In this document: positions 7,811 to 64,000 of the stretch, in pieces
How the letters are laid out: each line of letters starts with the position of its first letter
How positions within the stretch are numbered: the stretch's first letter is position 1
Translations under genes and position numbers: made by a program
From: Aureimonas ureilytica DSM 18598 = NBRC 106430
Lineage (GTDB): Bacteria > Pseudomonadota > Alphaproteobacteria > Rhizobiales > Rhizobiaceae
Assembly: GCF_000382705.1 (NCBI RefSeq)
Contig: NZ_ARQE01000008.1
Coordinates: 152,919 to 216,918 of the forward strand
Direction: 5' to 3'
Length of the DNA stretch: 64,000 nucleotides
Notes under the pieces: model-generated
What the model saw: only the letters and a program-made list of their open reading frames with translations
The model's database searches: none
What the model was told of the DNA's origin: nothing

Positions 7811-9019
7811 TCAGGCGGCGAGGGGCGCGGCGACGCGGTTTCGGCCGAGGATGAGGGCGACCGTCGTCGCGCCGCAAAGGGCCGCGATCGGCAGCAGCGC
7901 GTAGAGGAGCTGCTGCGGGCCCATGCCGCTCGCCAGAAGCCAGCCGGCGAAGAGCGGGCCGGCGATCGACCCGAAGCGCCCGACCGAGACGGCCAGGCCG
8001 ACGCCGACGCCGCGCACCTCGAGCGGGTAGCATTGCGGCGCGATGCCGTAGAGCAGCGCCTGCACGCCGATCAGCGTCGCGCCGACAAAGGCCCCGGTGA
8101 CGAGCGCCGCCGCGACATTGCCCGCCGGCACCATGGCGAGAAGCGCGATCGCCAGCATCAGCCCGCCGAAGCACAGGGCGGCCGACAGGGCGGGCCGTCG
8201 GCTGTCGAGGAACCGGCCGCCGAGGATCGCGCCCGCGGACCCCCCGATATTGAAGACGATCTGGACCAGGGACGCCGTGTCCCGGGCAAAGCCGAGCGAA
8301 ACGAGGATCTGCGGCAGCCAGTTGAGGAGGAGATAGACGACGACGAGGCCGAAGAAGAAGGCGGTCCAGAGGAGCAGCGTCTGCGCCATCGCGCCGCCGC
8401 CCAGAAGCACGTCGCGGCGGCGGGCCGAGCCCTTGGCAGCCCGCGTCACGCGGAACGGCGCCATCCATTTCAGGAGCGGCAGGATCAGGAGAAGCGGCAG
8501 GATGCCGCCGACCACGAAGATCGACCGCCAGTCGTCATGCAGGCCCATCATCGCGACGAGGCTCGCCAAAGCGCCGCCGAGCGGCACGCCGGCATACATG
8601 AAGGCGACGGCCCGGCCGCGCCGCTCGGGCGAGACGGACTCGGCCGCGATGGCGATGAGATTGGGCAGCGCCGCGCCGAGACCGATGCCCGTCAGGAAGC
8701 GCATGAGAACGAGATGCTCGAACGTGCCGGCAAAGGCCGTACCGATCGAGAACAGGCCGAACACGGCGAGCGACAGGGCAAGGCCGGTGCGCCGCCCCCA
8801 GCGATCGGCGATCACGCCGCCGCCGAGCGCGCCGAAGACGAGGCCGAAGGTCGCGGCCGAAAAGAACAGCCCCATCTGATCGGGCACCAGCCCGAAGGCG
8901 GGCACGAGCTTGGGCGCGGCGACGCCGGCGGCCTGAAGGTCGAAGCCTTCGATGATCGCGGCGAGGAACACGAGCGCGAGCGCGCGTGTCCCCCCATGGG
9001 CATGGGTGGCTGTGGTCAT
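7811..9019 (-). CDS. MFS transporter, aromatic acid:H+ symporter (AAHS) type
   Basis: A 402-residue inner-membrane protein with about 12 predicted helices. The first helix carries the GFDLQAAGVAAP motif, matching the D-x-x-D/Q-L family signature of AAHS symporters (PcaK, MhpT, HcnK types). The loop 2-3 motif G-x-x-A-D-R-x-G-R-R reads GGGVIADRWGRRTG. The start is ATG 9019, preceded by GGAGGAGA; upstream in-frame sequence to 9109 is not needed. It is next to a MarR regulator and divergent from a hydroxycinnamate-degradation operon, so the likely cargo is ferulate, p-coumarate or a similar aromatic acid, taken up with protons. The substrate is inferred from context only. Confidence 0.88.
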   Translation of the reverse strand: MTTATHAHGGTRALALVFLAAIIEGFDLQAAGVAAPKLVPAFGLVPDQMGLFFSAATFGLVFGALGGGVIADRWGRRTGLALSLAVFGLFSIGTAFAGTFEHLVLMRFLTGIGLGAALPNLIAIAAESVSPERRGRAVAFMYAGVPLGGALASLVAMMGLHDDWRSIFVVGGILPLLLILPLLKWMAPFRVTRAAKGSARRRDVLLGGGAMAQTLLLWTAFFFGLVVVYLLLNWLPQILVSLGFARDTASLVQIVFNIGGSAGAILGGRFLDSRRPALSAALCFGGLMLAIALLAMVPAGNVAAALVTGAFVGATLIGVQALLYGIAPQCYPLEVRGVGVGLAVSVGRFGSIAGPLFAGWLLASGMGPQQLLYALLPIAALCGATTVALILGRNRVAAPLAA

Positions 9020-9777: not shown

Positions 9778-11190
9778 ATGAGTGCCACCGCAAACCAGTT
9801 TCGCCGGATGAACCCGATCAGCGGCGAGGTCGCGAGCGAGGCGCCCGCGCAGACGCCGGCGGAGGCGCGGGCCGCCGTCGATGCGGCCGCCAAGGCGATG
9901 CCCGCCTGGGCCGCGCTCGGGCCGAACGCCCGCCGCGCCGCGCTCCTGAAGGCCGCCGACGCGCTCGCCGCCAAGGGCGACGCCTTCGTCGCCGCCATGA
10001 TGGCCGAGATCGGCGCGACGGAAGGCTGGGCGCGCTTCAACGTGATGCTCGCCGCCTCCATGCTGCGCGAGGCCGCCTCGCTCACCACGCAGGTTTCGGG
10101 CGAGGTCATTCCCTCGGACAAGCCGGGGTGCCTGGCCATGGCCATTCGCGAGCCGGCAGGCGTCGTGCTCGGCATCGCGCCCTGGAACGCGCCGGTGATC
10201 CTCGGCGTGCGGGCGCTGGCGACGCCGCTCGCCTGCGGCAATGCCGTGGTGTTCAAGGCGAGCGAGCTGTGCCCGCGCACGCATGGGCTGATCGTCGAGG
10301 CGCTGGCCGAGGCCGGCCTGCCGGACGGGCTCGTGCAACTCGTCACCAACGCGCCGGAGGATGCGGGCGAGGTCGTCGGCGCGCTGATCGACCACCCGGC
10401 CGTGCGCCGCGTCAACTTCACGGGCTCCACCGCGGTCGGGCGCATCGTGGCCGTGCGGGCCGCGCAGAACCTCAAGCCCTGCGTGCTCGAACTCGGCGGC
10501 AAGGCGCCGCTCCTGGTTCTCGAAGACGCCGATCTCGATGAAGCCGTGAAGGCCGCCGCCTTCGGCGCTTTCTTCAACCAGGGCCAGATCTGCATGTCGA
10601 CCGAGCGCCTCATCGTGGTCGATGCCGTGGCCGACGCCTTTGTCGAGAAGTTCACCGCCAAGGCGCGAACGCTCGCGGCGGGCGATCCGCGAAAGGGCGC
10701 AACGCCGCTCGGCGCCGTGGTGGACGTGAAGACGGCCGACAAGCTGAACGCGCTGGTCGAGGACGCCGTGTCCAAGGGCGCGCGCGTGGTCGCGGCCGGG
10801 GAGGCGGAGGGCGTGCTCGTGCCCGCCCACGTCGTGACGGACGTGACCTCCGACATGCGGCTTTATTCCGAGGAAAGCTTCGGCCCGGTCGTCGCGGTGA
10901 TCCGCGCGCGGGACGAGGCGGACGCGATCCGCATCGCCAATGACAGCGAATACGGCCTCTCGGCTTCCGTCTTCACGCGGGACGCCGCGCGCGGCCTCAA
11001 GGTCGCGCGGCAGATCCGCTCCGGCATCTGCCATGTGAACGGCGCGACGGTTCATGACGAGGCGCAGATGCCCTTCGGCGGGACCGGGGCGTCCGGCTAC
11101 GGGCGCTTCGGCGGTCGGGCCGGCATTGCCGAGTTCACCGAGCTGCGCTGGATCACGGTGGAGACCGAACCCGGCCATTTTCCGATCTGA
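9778..11190 (+). CDS. vdh: Vanillin/benzaldehyde-type NAD(P)+ aldehyde dehydrogenase
   Basis: A 470-residue aldehyde dehydrogenase. Catalytic residues are in place: Asn137 in PWN, Lys160 in VVFKASE, Glu238 in LELGGKAP, and nucleophile Cys272 in NQGQICMSTERL. The NFTGST cofactor motif is at about 213-218. It is the first gene of an operon followed by hydratase/lyase and CoA ligase genes. The expected role is oxidation of the aromatic aldehyde (vanillin from ferulate, 4-hydroxybenzaldehyde from p-coumarate) to the acid in the cytoplasm. The start is ATG 9778 with GGGGAGGAG. The salicylaldehyde dehydrogenase subfamily is close in sequence, so exact aldehyde preference rests on context. Confidence 0.88.
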   Translation: MSATANQFRRMNPISGEVASEAPAQTPAEARAAVDAAAKAMPAWAALGPNARRAALLKAADALAAKGDAFVAAMMAEIGATEGWARFNVMLAASMLREAASLTTQVSGEVIPSDKPGCLAMAIREPAGVVLGIAPWNAPVILGVRALATPLACGNAVVFKASELCPRTHGLIVEALAEAGLPDGLVQLVTNAPEDAGEVVGALIDHPAVRRVNFTGSTAVGRIVAVRAAQNLKPCVLELGGKAPLLVLEDADLDEAVKAAAFGAFFNQGQICMSTERLIVVDAVADAFVEKFTAKARTLAAGDPRKGATPLGAVVDVKTADKLNALVEDAVSKGARVVAAGEAEGVLVPAHVVTDVTSDMRLYSEESFGPVVAVIRARDEADAIRIANDSEYGLSASVFTRDAARGLKVARQIRSGICHVNGATVHDEAQMPFGGTGASGYGRFGGRAGIAEFTELRWITVETEPGHFPI

Positions 11191-36200: not shown

Positions 36201-37493
36201 TCAGTTCTGGACCGGCAGGCCGGTCGCGCCCGAAATCTCGTCGGCCGCCTGCTGGAGCGCGTCCTTCGCCTCGATCCGGCCGGCCATGAACTCGGCGAAG
36301 ATCGGGATGAAGCTGTTGTCGGCTTCGGCGAAATATTGCGTGCCGCGCCAGGGCTTGATCTTGTCGAGCGTGCCCAGAACCGTTTCCCAGATCGGCTGGT
36401 TGCCCCAGAAGGGTTGCGGCTGCTTCACATAGGGGTCCTTCAGCGCGGCCGGCAGGGTCGGCACGAGGCCGCTCGCCTTCAGCTGCGTGATCTGCCCCTC
36501 GGGCGTGCCGAGCGCGAAGCGCAGGAAGGCGAGCGCGGCCTCGGGGTTCTTCGAGGCGGAGGGGATGGCGAGCGCCGAGCCGCCGAGATTGGCCGCGCGC
36601 GCGCCGCCCTTCTCGAAGGCCGGCATCAGCGCGATGCCCCATTTGCCGCTCTGCTCGGGAACCGCGCCGCGCAACGAGCCCTCGTACCAGCCGCCATAGA
36701 CGGAGGCCGCGAGCTTGTCGGCCTTGATGGCCTGCAAGGTCTCGCCCCAATTGGCCTGGAGGAAGAGATCGGCCTTGGCGACCTTGCCGACCGTTTCCAG
36801 CGCCTGGAGGCAGGCGGGCTGGTCGATCGTCACATGCTCGGCGGCGGGATCGAACATCGCGCAGCCCGCTTCGTTGGCGAGCATTCGGAACCAGGTCGTG
36901 TCGCCATTGGTGGACACGAGCTTGGTGCCCTCGTTCGCCGCCACGATCTTCTGTCCGGCCGTGACGAAATCGTCCCAGGTCTCGATCGAGGCGACGTCGA
37001 CGCCGGCCTTCTCGAACATGTCGCGCCGATAGAAGAGAACCACCGGGCCGGAATCCCAGGGCATGGCGTAGACCTTGTCGCCGACGGTGAGTTCGGTGAG
37101 CTTGAACTCGGGGAACTGCCCAAGAAGCGTCGCGCCGTCCGGCCCCATCATGGCCTTGATGTCGCGGAAGCAGTCGGGGAAGCGCGCCCAGAACACTTCC
37201 GATTCCTGGTTCTCGACCGTGTAGACGTCGGGCATTCCGGCCCCGCCCGCCGCGCAGCCGGCCAGGCCGCGATCATAGGTCGGCTGGTTGCCGACATCCT
37301 CGATCTTGACCGTGACGTCGGGATATTTCGCGTTGAAGGCGGGCACCACGGCTTCCAGCGCCTTGGCCGCGACGTCCCAGCTCCACACGGTGATCGTGCC
37401 GGAAAGCTTGGGCTCCTGCGCCCCGGCGACGCCCGGCGCCAGAAGCGCCCATCCCGTCAGTGCGGCTGCCGCCGCCTTGCTCATGGCTCTCAT
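36201..37493 (-). CDS. Sugar-binding protein of a CUT1 ABC importer
   Basis: A 430-residue periplasmic binding protein with a Sec signal peptide (about residues 1-25, cut near GVAGA-QEP). SBP_bac_1-type features include GTITVWSWDVAAKALEAVVP, AMPWDSGPVVLFYRRDMFEK and GGWYEGSLRG. It contains several Cys (for example in GLAGCAAGG and PDCFRDI), probably disulfide-linked in the periplasm. The start is ATG 37493 with GGGAGGATCGAC upstream. It is the first gene of the operon leading to the beta-galactosidase and is divergent from an AraC regulator. The ligand is likely a galactoside, by context. Confidence 0.92.
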   Translation of the reverse strand: MRAMSKAAAAALTGWALLAPGVAGAQEPKLSGTITVWSWDVAAKALEAVVPAFNAKYPDVTVKIEDVGNQPTYDRGLAGCAAGGAGMPDVYTVENQESEVFWARFPDCFRDIKAMMGPDGATLLGQFPEFKLTELTVGDKVYAMPWDSGPVVLFYRRDMFEKAGVDVASIETWDDFVTAGQKIVAANEGTKLVSTNGDTTWFRMLANEAGCAMFDPAAEHVTIDQPACLQALETVGKVAKADLFLQANWGETLQAIKADKLAASVYGGWYEGSLRGAVPEQSGKWGIALMPAFEKGGARAANLGGSALAIPSASKNPEAALAFLRFALGTPEGQITQLKASGLVPTLPAALKDPYVKQPQPFWGNQPIWETVLGTLDKIKPWRGTQYFAEADNSFIPIFAEFMAGRIEAKDALQQAADEISGATGLPVQN

Positions 37494-61159: not shown

Positions 61160-61936
61160 TCAGGTGAACTGATAGGGCCCCGACGCGACCGCGTGCTGCG
61201 GGCGCGTCCATTCCTTGGGAAGCGCGACCTTGCGCGTGTCGCCGCGCCGCTCCGGGCGGCGCAATCCGAACATTTCGAGTTCCGACCAGACGGCGTCCGC
61301 ATCCTGGCGCGCGCTGGCGAGCCCCGGCGCGTCCTCGTCGGTGAGGTTGTAGATCGTGCCTCCGGTCAGGAACGGCGCTTCGAACGCGGCGCGCAGGCCG
61401 AGCCCCGCCGGCAGGCGAAAGCCCTGGCAGGCGCTGAGATCGCGCTCCACCCGGCGCGCGATGCGGCTGGGGATCGCGGTGATGCCGGTGGCCACCAGCG
61501 CGCGGCGACGCGGCGCGCGCTCGCCGCGCTCGGCCAGCATCGCGTCCGTCTCGGCCGCGGCGCTGGCGGAGAGGGGAGAGAAGCGAACGGGGATGATCGC
61601 CATGGCCGAGACCGAGGCCGCCTCGGCGAGCATCGTGTCGCAGACGCCGGCATCGATCACCACGAAGCGGCGCGAGCGACGGCCGAGATGAACCACCTCG
61701 TCCAGCTGCCGGGGCTTCGTGATGCGGGCGACCTCGATGCCTTTGGGACAGCCGGGCCGCTCGGCCCAGAGCGACAGGTCGGGGCGGCGCGCGGCATCCA
61801 CCAGCAGCACGTCGGTGCCCAGACGCTCGACGACCGTGGCGAGCGTCAAGGCCAGAGTTGTCGTTCCGCCGCTCCGGAGTGACCCGACCGTTACCACTGT
61901 CACTGTTCTTCTCCCATCACTGATAGAAGAATCCAT
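61160..61936 (-). CDS. ParA/MinD-like ATPase with degenerate P-loop
   Basis: A 258-residue protein with the fold signatures of ParA ATPases: strand 1 plus P-loop TVVTVGSLRSGGTTTLALTL, DVLLVDAARRPDLSLWAE, FVVIDAGVCDTMLAEAA (Walker B-like) and a helical C-terminus. The deviant Walker A KGGxGKTT reads LRSGGTTT, so the catalytic lysine is replaced by Thr and the signature lysine by Leu/Arg. It has no ParB or cargo gene nearby. It may bind but not hydrolyse ATP, or be a divergent cargo-positioning protein. The start ATG 61936 has no clear ribosome-binding site. A structured inverted-repeat region lies directly upstream. Confidence 0.75.
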   Translation of the reverse strand: MDSSISDGRRTVTVVTVGSLRSGGTTTLALTLATVVERLGTDVLLVDAARRPDLSLWAERPGCPKGIEVARITKPRQLDEVVHLGRRSRRFVVIDAGVCDTMLAEAASVSAMAIIPVRFSPLSASAAAETDAMLAERGERAPRRRALVATGITAIPSRIARRVERDLSACQGFRLPAGLGLRAAFEAPFLTGGTIYNLTDEDAPGLASARQDADAVWSELEMFGLRRPERRGDTRKVALPKEWTRPQHAVASGPYQFT

Positions 61937-62034: not shown

Positions 62035-62129
62035 CACCACCTTGGGCGGCTGCGCGGAGGTCTGCCCTTGCTGCTCTGCACCAAAAGCAGAGCTGCCATG
62101 CAGCATCGCCTCTAGCGCCGGGCGGATCG

Positions 62130-62154
62130 GGAACCTATCTTGGTCTTGTGAGTT
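62130..62154 (+). promoter_or_regulatory. EcfG-like promoter of the candidate small RNA
   Basis: GGAAC (62130-62134), 16 bp, then AGTT (62151-62154). The general-stress sigma factor EcfG of alphaproteobacteria recognises GGAAC-N16/17-CGTT, so this matches except for one base of the -10 element. It would place the RNA start near 62160, just at the first hairpin. Confidence 0.55.
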
Positions 62155-62159
62155 TCGCA

Positions 62160-62265
62160 GCAGCCTTTTCCTCCCATTGGCTGAGGCGATGGGCCGCCGG
62201 TTCCTCCCACCGACGGCATCCTAACGGCGTTCGCTGGTCCTCCCCCAGCGGACGCCATTTTTTTT
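62160..62265 (+). ncRNA. Candidate small RNA with three anti-Shine-Dalgarno hairpin loops (ar14/cuckoo-like)
   Basis: Three successive hairpins each display UCCUCCC in the loop. Hairpin 1 is CAGCC/GGCTG (62161-62183) with loop TTTTCCTCCCATT. Hairpin 2 is GCCGCCGG/CCGACGGC (62193-62217, one mismatch) with loop TTCCTCCCA. Hairpin 3 is GGCGTTCGCTGG/CCAGCGGACGCC (62226-62256, one G-U) with loop TCCTCCC, followed by eight T. No protein gene precedes this terminator on the plus strand. The architecture matches what I know of the alphaproteobacterial ar14/cuckoo (CcsR-type) RNAs, which carry CCUCCUCCC loops and base-pair with ribosome-binding sites under stress. Here the loop motif is the shorter UCCUCCC. 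Start position is inferred from the promoter-like sequence. Confidence 0.75.
62226..62265 (+). terminator. Canonical intrinsic terminator of the small RNA
   Basis: A 12-bp stem with one G-U pair, a 7-nt loop and a run of eight T (62258-62265). It is the only textbook rho-independent terminator with a long T-run found in the window. Confidence 0.9.
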
Positions 62266-62518: not shown

Positions 62519-64000
62519 ATGGAACAGGTTCAGGGAACACGGCGGATCAAGATCCGGCAATATCGCCTCTTGTTCGCGCTTCAGATCGCTGCCCTCCTCT
62601 GCCTCGCGCTGTCGCTCGCCGCCCCGAACCTCGCCAAAGAGGGCCTCGCCATAGGGGAGCTCGGCACGCCGACCTTGTCGGTTGCGCCCTTCGCGCTGAT
62701 CGCCGCTTCGGTGCTCCTGCTCTTGTGGATGCGGCTCTGGTTGCGGCGCGAAGTCGAAGCGGCCGGGGCGGAAGCCGCGCGTCAGGTCGCCCTGCTTCAG
62801 GTCGATCCGCTGACCGGCGCCATGACGAGGCGCATCTTCATGGATGCGCTGAAGGCCGCGACGCGCCCCCATCCGGCCGGCGAGCCCTGCTCGCTCGCGC
62901 TACTCGACGTCGATCACTTCAAGTCGCTGAACGACAGTTTCGGCCACAATGTCGGAGATTTCGCGCTGACGCATCTCGTCGAGGTCGCCCGTCGGACCCT
63001 GCCGGGCGCCCTGATCGGACGGCTCGGCGGCGACGAATTCGCCGTGCTCCTGCCCGGCTGCGACGAAACCACAGCGCTGGCGCGAATGGAGGAATTCCTC
63101 TCGGCGCTGAAGACCCCGACCTTCGCGGCCAATCGCCAGCTCAATCTCAGCGCCTCGATCGGCCTCGTCACCGCGCCGCGCCAGACCTCGTTCTTCGAGG
63201 AGATGATCCTGCTCGCCGATCTCGCGCTCTACGAGAGCAAGCGGCGCGGGCGCGGGCGCGCGACCCTGTTCGATCCCGACATGCTGCGCATCAAGCGCAA
63301 CCGCCGCATGATAGAGCGCGACCTGCGCGCCGCGATCATGCTGGACGAGCTGGACCTGCACTACCAGCCGATCACCGGCGCCGACCAGACGATCCTCGGC
63401 GTCGAGGCGCTCGTGCGCTGGAAGCACCCGATCCGGGGCATGATCCCGCCGGCCGAGTTCATCCCCGTCGCCGAGGAAGGCGCCCTGATCGACATGCTCG
63501 GCGAATGGGTTCTGCGCCGCGCCTGTCAGGATCTGGAAGACCTTCCGGGCCGCTTCGTCAGCGTCAACGTCTCGCCCTCCCAGCTCCGCCGCAACGATCT
63601 CGTGGAGGTGATGAAGACCGTCCTTCGCGACAGCGGCGTCGCGCCCCATCAGCTCGTTCTGGAAATCACCGAGAACGTCTCGCTCCTGTCGATCCCCGAA
63701 GTGCTCGGGCGCATCCAGTCGCTGCGCACGATGGGCATCGTGATCGCGCTCGACGATTTCGGCACCGGCCATTGCACCTTCAACTATCTGCGCTCGCTGC
63801 CCGTGGACATCGTGAAGATCGACCGGTCCTACATTTCCCGTCTGGCGGACGATCCGGTTTCGCGCGTCTTCGTCTCGGCCGTTCTCGAAATCGCGCGCGC
63901 GCTGCGCCTGTCGGTGGTCGCCGAGGGGATCGAGACGCCGGAGGAGTTCAGCCTCTCACGCGCCGCCGGTTGCACACGGTTCCAGGGCTATCTTCTCGGC
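62519..64000 (+). CDS. GGDEF-EAL c-di-GMP protein, 3' end cut by window edge
   Basis: At least 494 residues, open to the window end. Two N-terminal membrane helices (about residues 17-37 and 55-75) are separated by a very short periplasmic loop, followed by GGDEF and EAL domains. The GGDEF motif is intact (RLGGDEFAVL), while the RxxD inhibitory site position reads LPGA. The EAL domain keeps LHYQPI, the EALVRW signature, EITENV, the metal-binding DDFGTG, KIDRSYI and VAEGIET. Both synthesis and breakdown of c-di-GMP are possible; the intact EAL motifs argue for a working phosphodiesterase. The ATG at 62519 is preceded by GGAGCGG. The missing part should be only the last few dozen residues of the EAL domain. 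Confidence 0.92.
   Translation, partial: MEQVQGTRRIKIRQYRLLFALQIAALLCLALSLAAPNLAKEGLAIGELGTPTLSVAPFALIAASVLLLLWMRLWLRREVEAAGAEAARQVALLQVDPLTGAMTRRIFMDALKAATRPHPAGEPCSLALLDVDHFKSLNDSFGHNVGDFALTHLVEVARRTLPGALIGRLGGDEFAVLLPGCDETTALARMEEFLSALKTPTFAANRQLNLSASIGLVTAPRQTSFFEEMILLADLALYESKRRGRGRATLFDPDMLRIKRNRRMIERDLRAAIMLDELDLHYQPITGADQTILGVEALVRWKHPIRGMIPPAEFIPVAEEGALIDMLGEWVLRRACQDLEDLPGRFVSVNVSPSQLRRNDLVEVMKTVLRDSGVAPHQLVLEITENVSLLSIPEVLGRIQSLRTMGIVIALDDFGTGHCTFNYLRSLPVDIVKIDRSYISRLADDPVSRVFVSAVLEIARALRLSVVAEGIETPEEFSLSRAAGCTRFQGYLLG

Follow-up and report, generated by a model that had tools for sequence, protein, structure and literature searches.

A divergent ar14-type small RNA of Aureimonas ureilytica with three UCCUCCC hairpin loops and a probable VtlR/LsrB-type promoter

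A short region between a ParA-like ATPase gene and a GGDEF-EAL gene in Aureimonas ureilytica DSM 18598 raises the question of whether it encodes a small regulatory RNA, and, if so, to which family the RNA belongs, what drives its transcription, and which mRNAs it may act on. An initial annotation, made from the sequence letters, had proposed three consecutive hairpins that each expose UCCUCCC, the third of them doubling as the RNA's own terminator with eight U. We analyzed the region within a window of 64,000 nucleotides (the whole stretch of DNA considered here; features are listed in Table 1), and both structural claims were borne out. In the folding ensemble, the UCCUCCC bases of each of the three loops are unpaired with a probability of at least 0.99, and hairpin 3 consists of a 12-bp stem and a 7-nt loop, followed by an A and then eight T/U. 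The minimum free energy of the RNA is −51.6 kcal/mol (z −3.98), and none of 200 dinucleotide shuffles was equally stable. When the three cores were kept fixed and the remainder was mononucleotide-shuffled, all three cores fell into hairpin loops in 1 of 1,000 folds. As a word, TCCTCCC shows no clear enrichment in the window (16 matches versus 11.81 expected, with as many in 11 of 100 shuffles), and the unusual feature is hence the arrangement of the loops. The 5' end was placed at 62147–62150 from the −10-like element and the start of the ar14 model match. Peptide coding was considered and rejected, as the open reading frames overlapping the RNA resemble high-GC noise and the stems of the region vary.

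Table 1. Positions, within the 64-kb window, of the small RNA, its upstream elements, its neighbors, and candidate targets
Feature	Position	Strand	Basis or remark
ar14-type small RNA, ~117 nt	62148..62265	+	ar14 match, fold z
Hairpin 1, UCCUCCC loop at 62169–62175	62155..62189	+	Fold; two-sided changes in 6/9 consensus pairs (57 relatives)
Hairpin 2, UCCUCCC loop at 62202–62208	62193..62217	+	Fold of the window RNA
Hairpin 3 and intrinsic terminator, UCCUCCC loop at 62238–62244	62226..62265	+	Inner stem of 5 pairs, 100% of cells paired
TGCA-N6-GCAG	62077..62090	+	Similar to TGCA-N6-GCAT, an LTTR motif located at −72 in the NfeR1 promoter (PMC10746234)
VtlR/LsrB-type box CAGAGCTGCCATGCA	62088..62102	+	Agrees with the Brucella VtlR motif at 12/15 positions
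Weak −35-like CTCTAGCG, assignment uncertain	62110..62117	+	CTCTAGCG in G019 and CTCTGGCG in G013, at the same distance
−10-like CTATCT	62135..62140	+	CTANNT at a fixed offset from the box in 7/8 standalone copies
GGAAC-N16-AGTT	62130..62154	+	Exact match; probably fortuitous
ParA-like ATPase gene, divergent neighbor	61160..61936	−	NCBIfam ParA_partition, 67.9 bits (cut-off 180)
GGDEF-EAL gene, runs off the window; starts ~250 nt past the terminator	62519..64000	+	PF00990, PF00563
Candidate target, MFS transporter (MhpT-like)	7811..9019	−	TGGGAGGA before ATG
Candidate target, aldehyde dehydrogenase	9778..11190	+	GGGAGGA before ATG
Candidate target, sugar-type ABC substrate-binding protein	36201..37493	−	TGGGAGGA before ATG

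The shape had been likened to the ar14/cuckoo family with a shorter loop motif, and covariance-model searches agree. The Rfam model ar14 (RF02344) matched the window over its full length at 62150–62260 (54.9 bits, E 3e-9); the gathering score is 58.8, so that a gathering-level scan of the whole window gives no matches. Among the orthologs adjoining the same ParA-like gene in the two most closely related genomes, that of G019 (L091) scores over the cut-off (59.4 bits) and that of G013 under it (54.8 bits), and a paralog in the window's own genome (L004) reaches 66.8 bits, again over the cut-off. Matches over the cut-off were found in all 21 Aureimonas genomes searched and, in a sample of 121 genomes from the GTDB family (Rhizobiaceae), in 108 (in 116 at E ≤ 0.001); in the NCBI taxonomy, Aureimonas belongs to the Aurantimonadaceae. 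The window RNA shares with the family the three hairpins with anti-Shine-Dalgarno (anti-SD) loops and the use of the third as an intrinsic terminator. The family loop motif CCUCCUCCC, reported to be ultraconserved, is absent from it, all three loops reading UCCUCCC; in many Aureimonas copies, loops 1 and 2 read CUCCUCCC or CCUCCUCCC, and hairpin 3 has GGUCCUCCCCC. Because of this shortened motif, we term the window RNA a divergent ar14-like member. Its membership in the family is very likely, and by its sequence, it is probably functional. Three other Rfam candidates were rejected: 6C RNA (RF01066; 39 bits at 62188–62263 against a cut-off of 47) is a weaker match than ar14 and covers two hairpins, CcsR1 is at chance level (12.9 bits, E 2.8), and the Scr3202 match is weaker than ar14 or at chance level.

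Comparison with related copies indicates that the structure has been maintained. The 21 genomes held 92 ar14 matches, of which 74 were analyzed, and 18, which were weaker or outside the analyzed regions, were left out (40 of 46 further regions were taken in). Three CCTCCC cores were present in 60 of the 74 copies, two in 13, and four in one; the alignment comprised 57 of the 60 three-core copies, leaving out two identical sequences and L008. In the 14 stem pairs of hairpins 1 and 3, 95.0% of cells were paired (89.0% in shuffles), two-sided changes occurred in nine pairs (4.4 in shuffles), and the covariation score was 0.242 (0.143 in shuffles). None of 500 shuffles reached these values for paired cells, double changes, or covariation score, and all six slid controls were far lower. 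Of the three hairpins, the RNAalifold consensus of the MAFFT alignment contains hairpin 1 and, from hairpin 3, the inner part; hairpin 2, where the alignment is poor, is missing from it. When the sequences were folded one by one, 171 of the 173 CCTCC cores were in hairpin loops, with at least three in each of the 57 RNAs, although this invariance is partly built in, since three CCTCCC cores were the criterion for choosing the 57 and the model used to find them contains the loops.

The initial annotation would have been contradicted by a lack of the three loops at homologous loci of related genomes; at the loci adjoining the orthologous ParA-like gene, the three loops are kept in all three. The promoter-like block, the structure, and the terminator are likewise intact in the window, G013, and G019, which argues against the window copy being a silent paralog. 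That reading would fit a genome with several ar14 copies and a window copy that scores under the Rfam cut-off, and there is a precedent in Sinorhizobium meliloti, where one of six NfeR1-type loci is described as reliably detected by Northern blot (PMC7143759). We consider silence unlikely for the window copy.

The genomic setting had been called new, and it is, but it is also shallow. A ParA-like gene beside the RNA is common to the window, G013, and G019 only; to the right, the window and G019 have a GGDEF-EAL gene and G013 a different one. ParA-like homologs (E ≤ 1e-10) occur in 16 of the 21 genomes, only the three with 76–100% identity adjoin the RNA, and 21 further ParA-like loci (L037–L057) showed no three-core cluster within 1.5 kb. 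Given this restricted left and variable right flank, the RNA appears, as far as seen, to be independent of its neighbors' function. The ParA-like ATPase gave no Pfam hit and has, as read by eye, an unusual P-loop (GSLRSGGTTT).

Two readings other than a trans-acting RNA from the plus strand can be weighed here. The hairpins might form a leader or attenuator of the GGDEF-EAL gene, which lies on the same strand at a short distance and also follows the RNA in G019. In G013, no GGDEF-EAL gene lies within 1.5 kb, the next gene resembling (by eye) a periplasmic binding protein, and dozens of paralogs lie elsewhere; we rejected the leader, a most improbable explanation, on the differing right flank of G013. 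The functional RNA might instead be transcribed from the opposite strand, which shows GGA in hairpin loops, with the GGGAGGA loops acting as a CsrA-type sponge. The U run of the terminator, the ar14 match, and the promoter block are all on the plus strand, and CsrA is rare in this order, which makes such a sponge scarcely credible. A trans-acting RNA read from the plus strand is the interpretation pursued below.

Further ar14-like copies in the window's genome differ from the window copy (C8:215068) in their surroundings. Those at C2:279596, C8:239825, and C1:218068 start at most about 50 nt past a DUF1127 gene (weaker copies include C13:20290), so that of the five DUF1127 genes detected in this genome, three precede ar14 copies in this way. 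None of the five lies near the window copy, and an HMM scan of the 350 nt upstream of it was negative. Among the 74 copies analyzed, 49 have a DUF1127 gene directly upstream and 25 are standalone, with at least one DUF1127-linked copy in every one of the 21 genomes. This DUF1127-ar14 arrangement is that of the CIN1 locus, described for ccaF1-CcsR in Rhodobacter (PMC10253847). G013 (11 matches) and G019 (10 matches) have an expanded ar14 set relative to the other Aureimonas genomes (two to six); most of the extra copies analyzed follow DUF1127 genes and have no good VtlR-type box. Several two-loop variants (L146, L148, L155–L157, L159, and L160, plus L012 in the window's genome) consist of one CCUCCUCCC-type hairpin and a GGUCCUCCCCC terminator and are immediately preceded by a GCATGGCTGCCATGC-like palindrome; by sequence, they are possibly a shorter, separately transcribed subclass.

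What drives the standalone window copy is the point at which we depart from the initial annotation, which had assigned an EcfG-like promoter on the basis of GGAAC-N16-AGTT and had suggested a general-stress regulator. The motif is indeed present, and its retention in the closest ortholog, G013, where much of the flank has diverged, would be consistent with the same anti-SD RNA being driven by the general-stress sigma factor EcfG. Its frequency in the 64-kb window is nonetheless at chance level (one match versus 1.77 expected). GGAAC-N16-NGTT stands at the RNA start in 2 of the 74 copies, those of the window and G013, which are mutual orthologs; it is absent from the third ortholog, in G019, and within 300 nt upstream of the 25 standalone copies, it was found in the window and G013 only. 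A single instance (L082, at −211) occurs within 520 nt upstream of the 49 DUF1127-linked copies. The conservation of GGAAC-N16/17-NGTT that marks an EcfG regulon is therefore missing, with the motif in two of three orthologs and 2 of 25 standalone copies.

The downstream half of the motif has a different explanation. Most standalone three-loop copies (13 of 15) begin with AGTTTCGC, compared with 4 of 45 DUF1127-linked three-loop copies, where TTTCGC is commoner at this position (31/45). The last letters of AGTTTCGC form part of the outer stem of hairpin 1, and AGTT lies within the 5' segment of the RNA. The 13 include five of the six copies with a VtlR-type box at −106 to −109, in which AGTTTCGC is expected to be internal to the transcript, far from its start. 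If an EcfG −10 element set the start (near 62160), the outer stem of hairpin 1 would be lost (−45.2 versus −51.6 kcal/mol). EcfG control is accordingly improbable, and with it, the general-stress label loses its support.

The upstream region points instead to a VtlR/LsrB-activated promoter of the sigma70 type, which, judged from its motifs, is the probable promoter of the window RNA. The VtlR motif described in Brucella is CAATGCAGCCATGCA (PMC12595884), and the box upstream of the RNA is its single match with at most three mismatches in the 64-kb window (1.33 expected by chance). With the same tolerance, the 15-mer is found within 150 nt of 18 of 25 standalone copies (12 of 15 with three loops), compared with 0 of 1,000 random 150-nt stretches of the window and 6 of 2,500 shuffled upstream regions. 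The spacing is also conserved: from the start of the box to the RNA match, the distance is 62 or 63 nt in eight standalone copies from eight genomes, and in seven of these, CTANNT follows at a fixed distance. TGCA-N6-GCAG precedes the start of the RNA match by 73 to 74 nt in all three orthologs. If the start is taken as 62148, positions −61 to −49 match the LsrB consensus GCAT-N3-TG-N3-T with one mismatch, which is where the S. meliloti abcR1 promoter has this element (PMC8844928); TGCA-N6-GCAG then sits near −72, in agreement with the nfeR1 promoter (PMC10746234). The sequence has the LTTR box and the CTATAT-like −10 of an NfeR1-type promoter. Counting against such a promoter are the weak −35, a scan for E. 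coli-type promoters that found none, and the chance expectation of 1.33 boxes of this quality per 64 kb. In six other standalone copies (L066, L074, L077, L084, L090, and L129), the box is at −106 to −109, a position that implies that a leader of some 45 nt precedes hairpin 1. On the minus strand, the window's box could also be taken for a small terminator-like hairpin (62092–62104), probably for no other reason than its palindromic sequence.

A candidate regulator for such a box is present. Because ar15/AbcR, the usual VtlR target and a possible marker for lsrB, was not found in the window's genome (20.1 bits, E 0.2), we used as query an LTTR that lies beside ar15 in another genus and that we took to be VtlR/LsrB (it adjoined ar15 in 8 of 10 loci, as read by eye). 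Each of the 21 genomes has one match, 65–67% identical. ar15/AbcR was found in 24 of 31 sampled family genomes; that the search detected none in the window's genome, which does have a VtlR/LsrB ortholog, counts against the VtlR/LsrB reading.

Whether the same regulator extends to the other copies is less clear. VtlR-type boxes with at most three mismatches accompany 23 of the 49 DUF1127-linked copies, compared with 6 of 1,000 background stretches, and 13 of 30 ar14 loci of other genera (the top-scoring loci from the sample of 121 family genomes). In the window's genome, however, one of five copies has such a box, namely, the window copy (the other four have boxes with four to six mismatches, which also weighs against the promoter proposed for the window copy), and the counts are two of seven in G013 and one of nine in G019. 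So few boxed copies among the closest kin count against set-wide control. We therefore offer only tentatively, and with more doubt than confidence, the view that VtlR/LsrB of Aureimonas governs a multi-copy set of anti-SD RNAs, comprising standalone copies and DUF1127-ar14 operons. If true, one redox- or nutrient-linked regulator would release many interchangeable blockers of extended SD sites, and the known control of DUF1127 genes by VtlR in Brucella would be part of the same circuit.

The loops suggest how the RNA may act. In S. meliloti, three redundant anti-SD loops of NfeR1, which has an LsrB-activated sigma70 promoter, are reported to silence ntrB and two substrate-binding protein mRNAs (PMC10746234), and by analogy, the window RNA should pair with extended SD sites. 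A scan of the 64-kb window found GGGAGGA 13 times outside the RNA, six of them at SD distance before the ATG of frames of at least 300 codons (Abhydrolase_9, aldehyde dehydrogenase, AMP-binding enzyme, AAA_27, substrate-binding protein, and MFS transporter). The transporter, dehydrogenase, and binding protein had already been named as plausible targets, and all three do carry GGGAGGA 6–8 nt before the ATG. Loops 1 and 2 are complementary to the 8-mer TGGGAGGA, which is found four times outside the RNA, three of these at SD distance, including the MFS and substrate-binding genes (six in total versus 1.69 expected, counting two copies that are the RNA's own complement). TGGGAGGA is kept in all three transporter orthologs found; among the binding-protein orthologs, GGGAGGA is kept in all four found, and TGGGAGGA is present in the window only. 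Strong SD sites are conserved anyway, so this conservation is support and no proof. By analogy with NfeR1, the window RNA is likely to be an anti-SD translational repressor, and it may, like NfeR1, act independently of Hfq.

Taken together, we favor, with reasonable confidence, a reading in which the small RNA encoded in the window acts in trans and belongs to the ar14 (NfeR1-like, "cuckoo") family. It would be transcribed from its own sigma70-type promoter, which VtlR/LsrB, a LysR-type regulator, would probably activate from a site at about −60 to −46, and transcription would end at the third hairpin. Any of the three single-stranded UCCUCCC loops could then pair with an extended SD sequence (GGGAGGA, at best UGGGAGGA) and block ribosome entry on mRNAs, those of transporters among them. 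The RNA adds a shortened-loop variant to a known family of anti-SD RNAs, and its likely control moves from general stress to the VtlR/LsrB regulator. Among the papers listed by searches of one literature collection, none dealt with small RNAs of Aureimonas or connected VtlR with cuckoo or CcsR RNAs. A link is suggested by two observations, namely, that VtlR activates three DUF1127 genes in Brucella (PMC12595884) and that many alphaproteobacterial DUF1127 genes carry 3' anti-SD RNAs. If it is general, VtlR/LsrB phenotypes may act largely via anti-SD RNAs.

Among known systems, the closest is NfeR1 (Smr14C2) of S. meliloti, which is described as an RNA of about 115 nt with three anti-SD hairpins, the third being the terminator, and with its own promoter comprising an LTTR motif at about −72 and a sigma70 core (PMC10746234, PMC8844928). 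The window RNA differs from it in having UCCUCCC loops in place of CCUCCUCCC, divergent stems, and a score under the ar14 cut-off, and in that no AbcR was found in the window's genome. AbcR1/AbcR2 (ar15, RF02345) share anti-SD-type pairing to transporter mRNAs (PMC8844928), but their fold differs from that of the window RNA. AbcR1 is placed under VtlR/LsrB in one account, which treats both VtlR and NfeR1 (PMC8844928), and another reports that no effect of lsrB was seen in S. meliloti 1021 (PMC7486931). The 6C RNA (RF01066) resembles the window RNA in having two C-rich hairpin loops. Lastly, the CcsR RNAs of Rhodobacter follow the DUF1127 gene ccaF1 (PMC10253847), just as paralogs in the window's genome follow DUF1127 genes; unlike these cuckoo/CIN1/CcsR loci, the window copy is not preceded by a DUF1127 gene and has a predicted promoter of its own.
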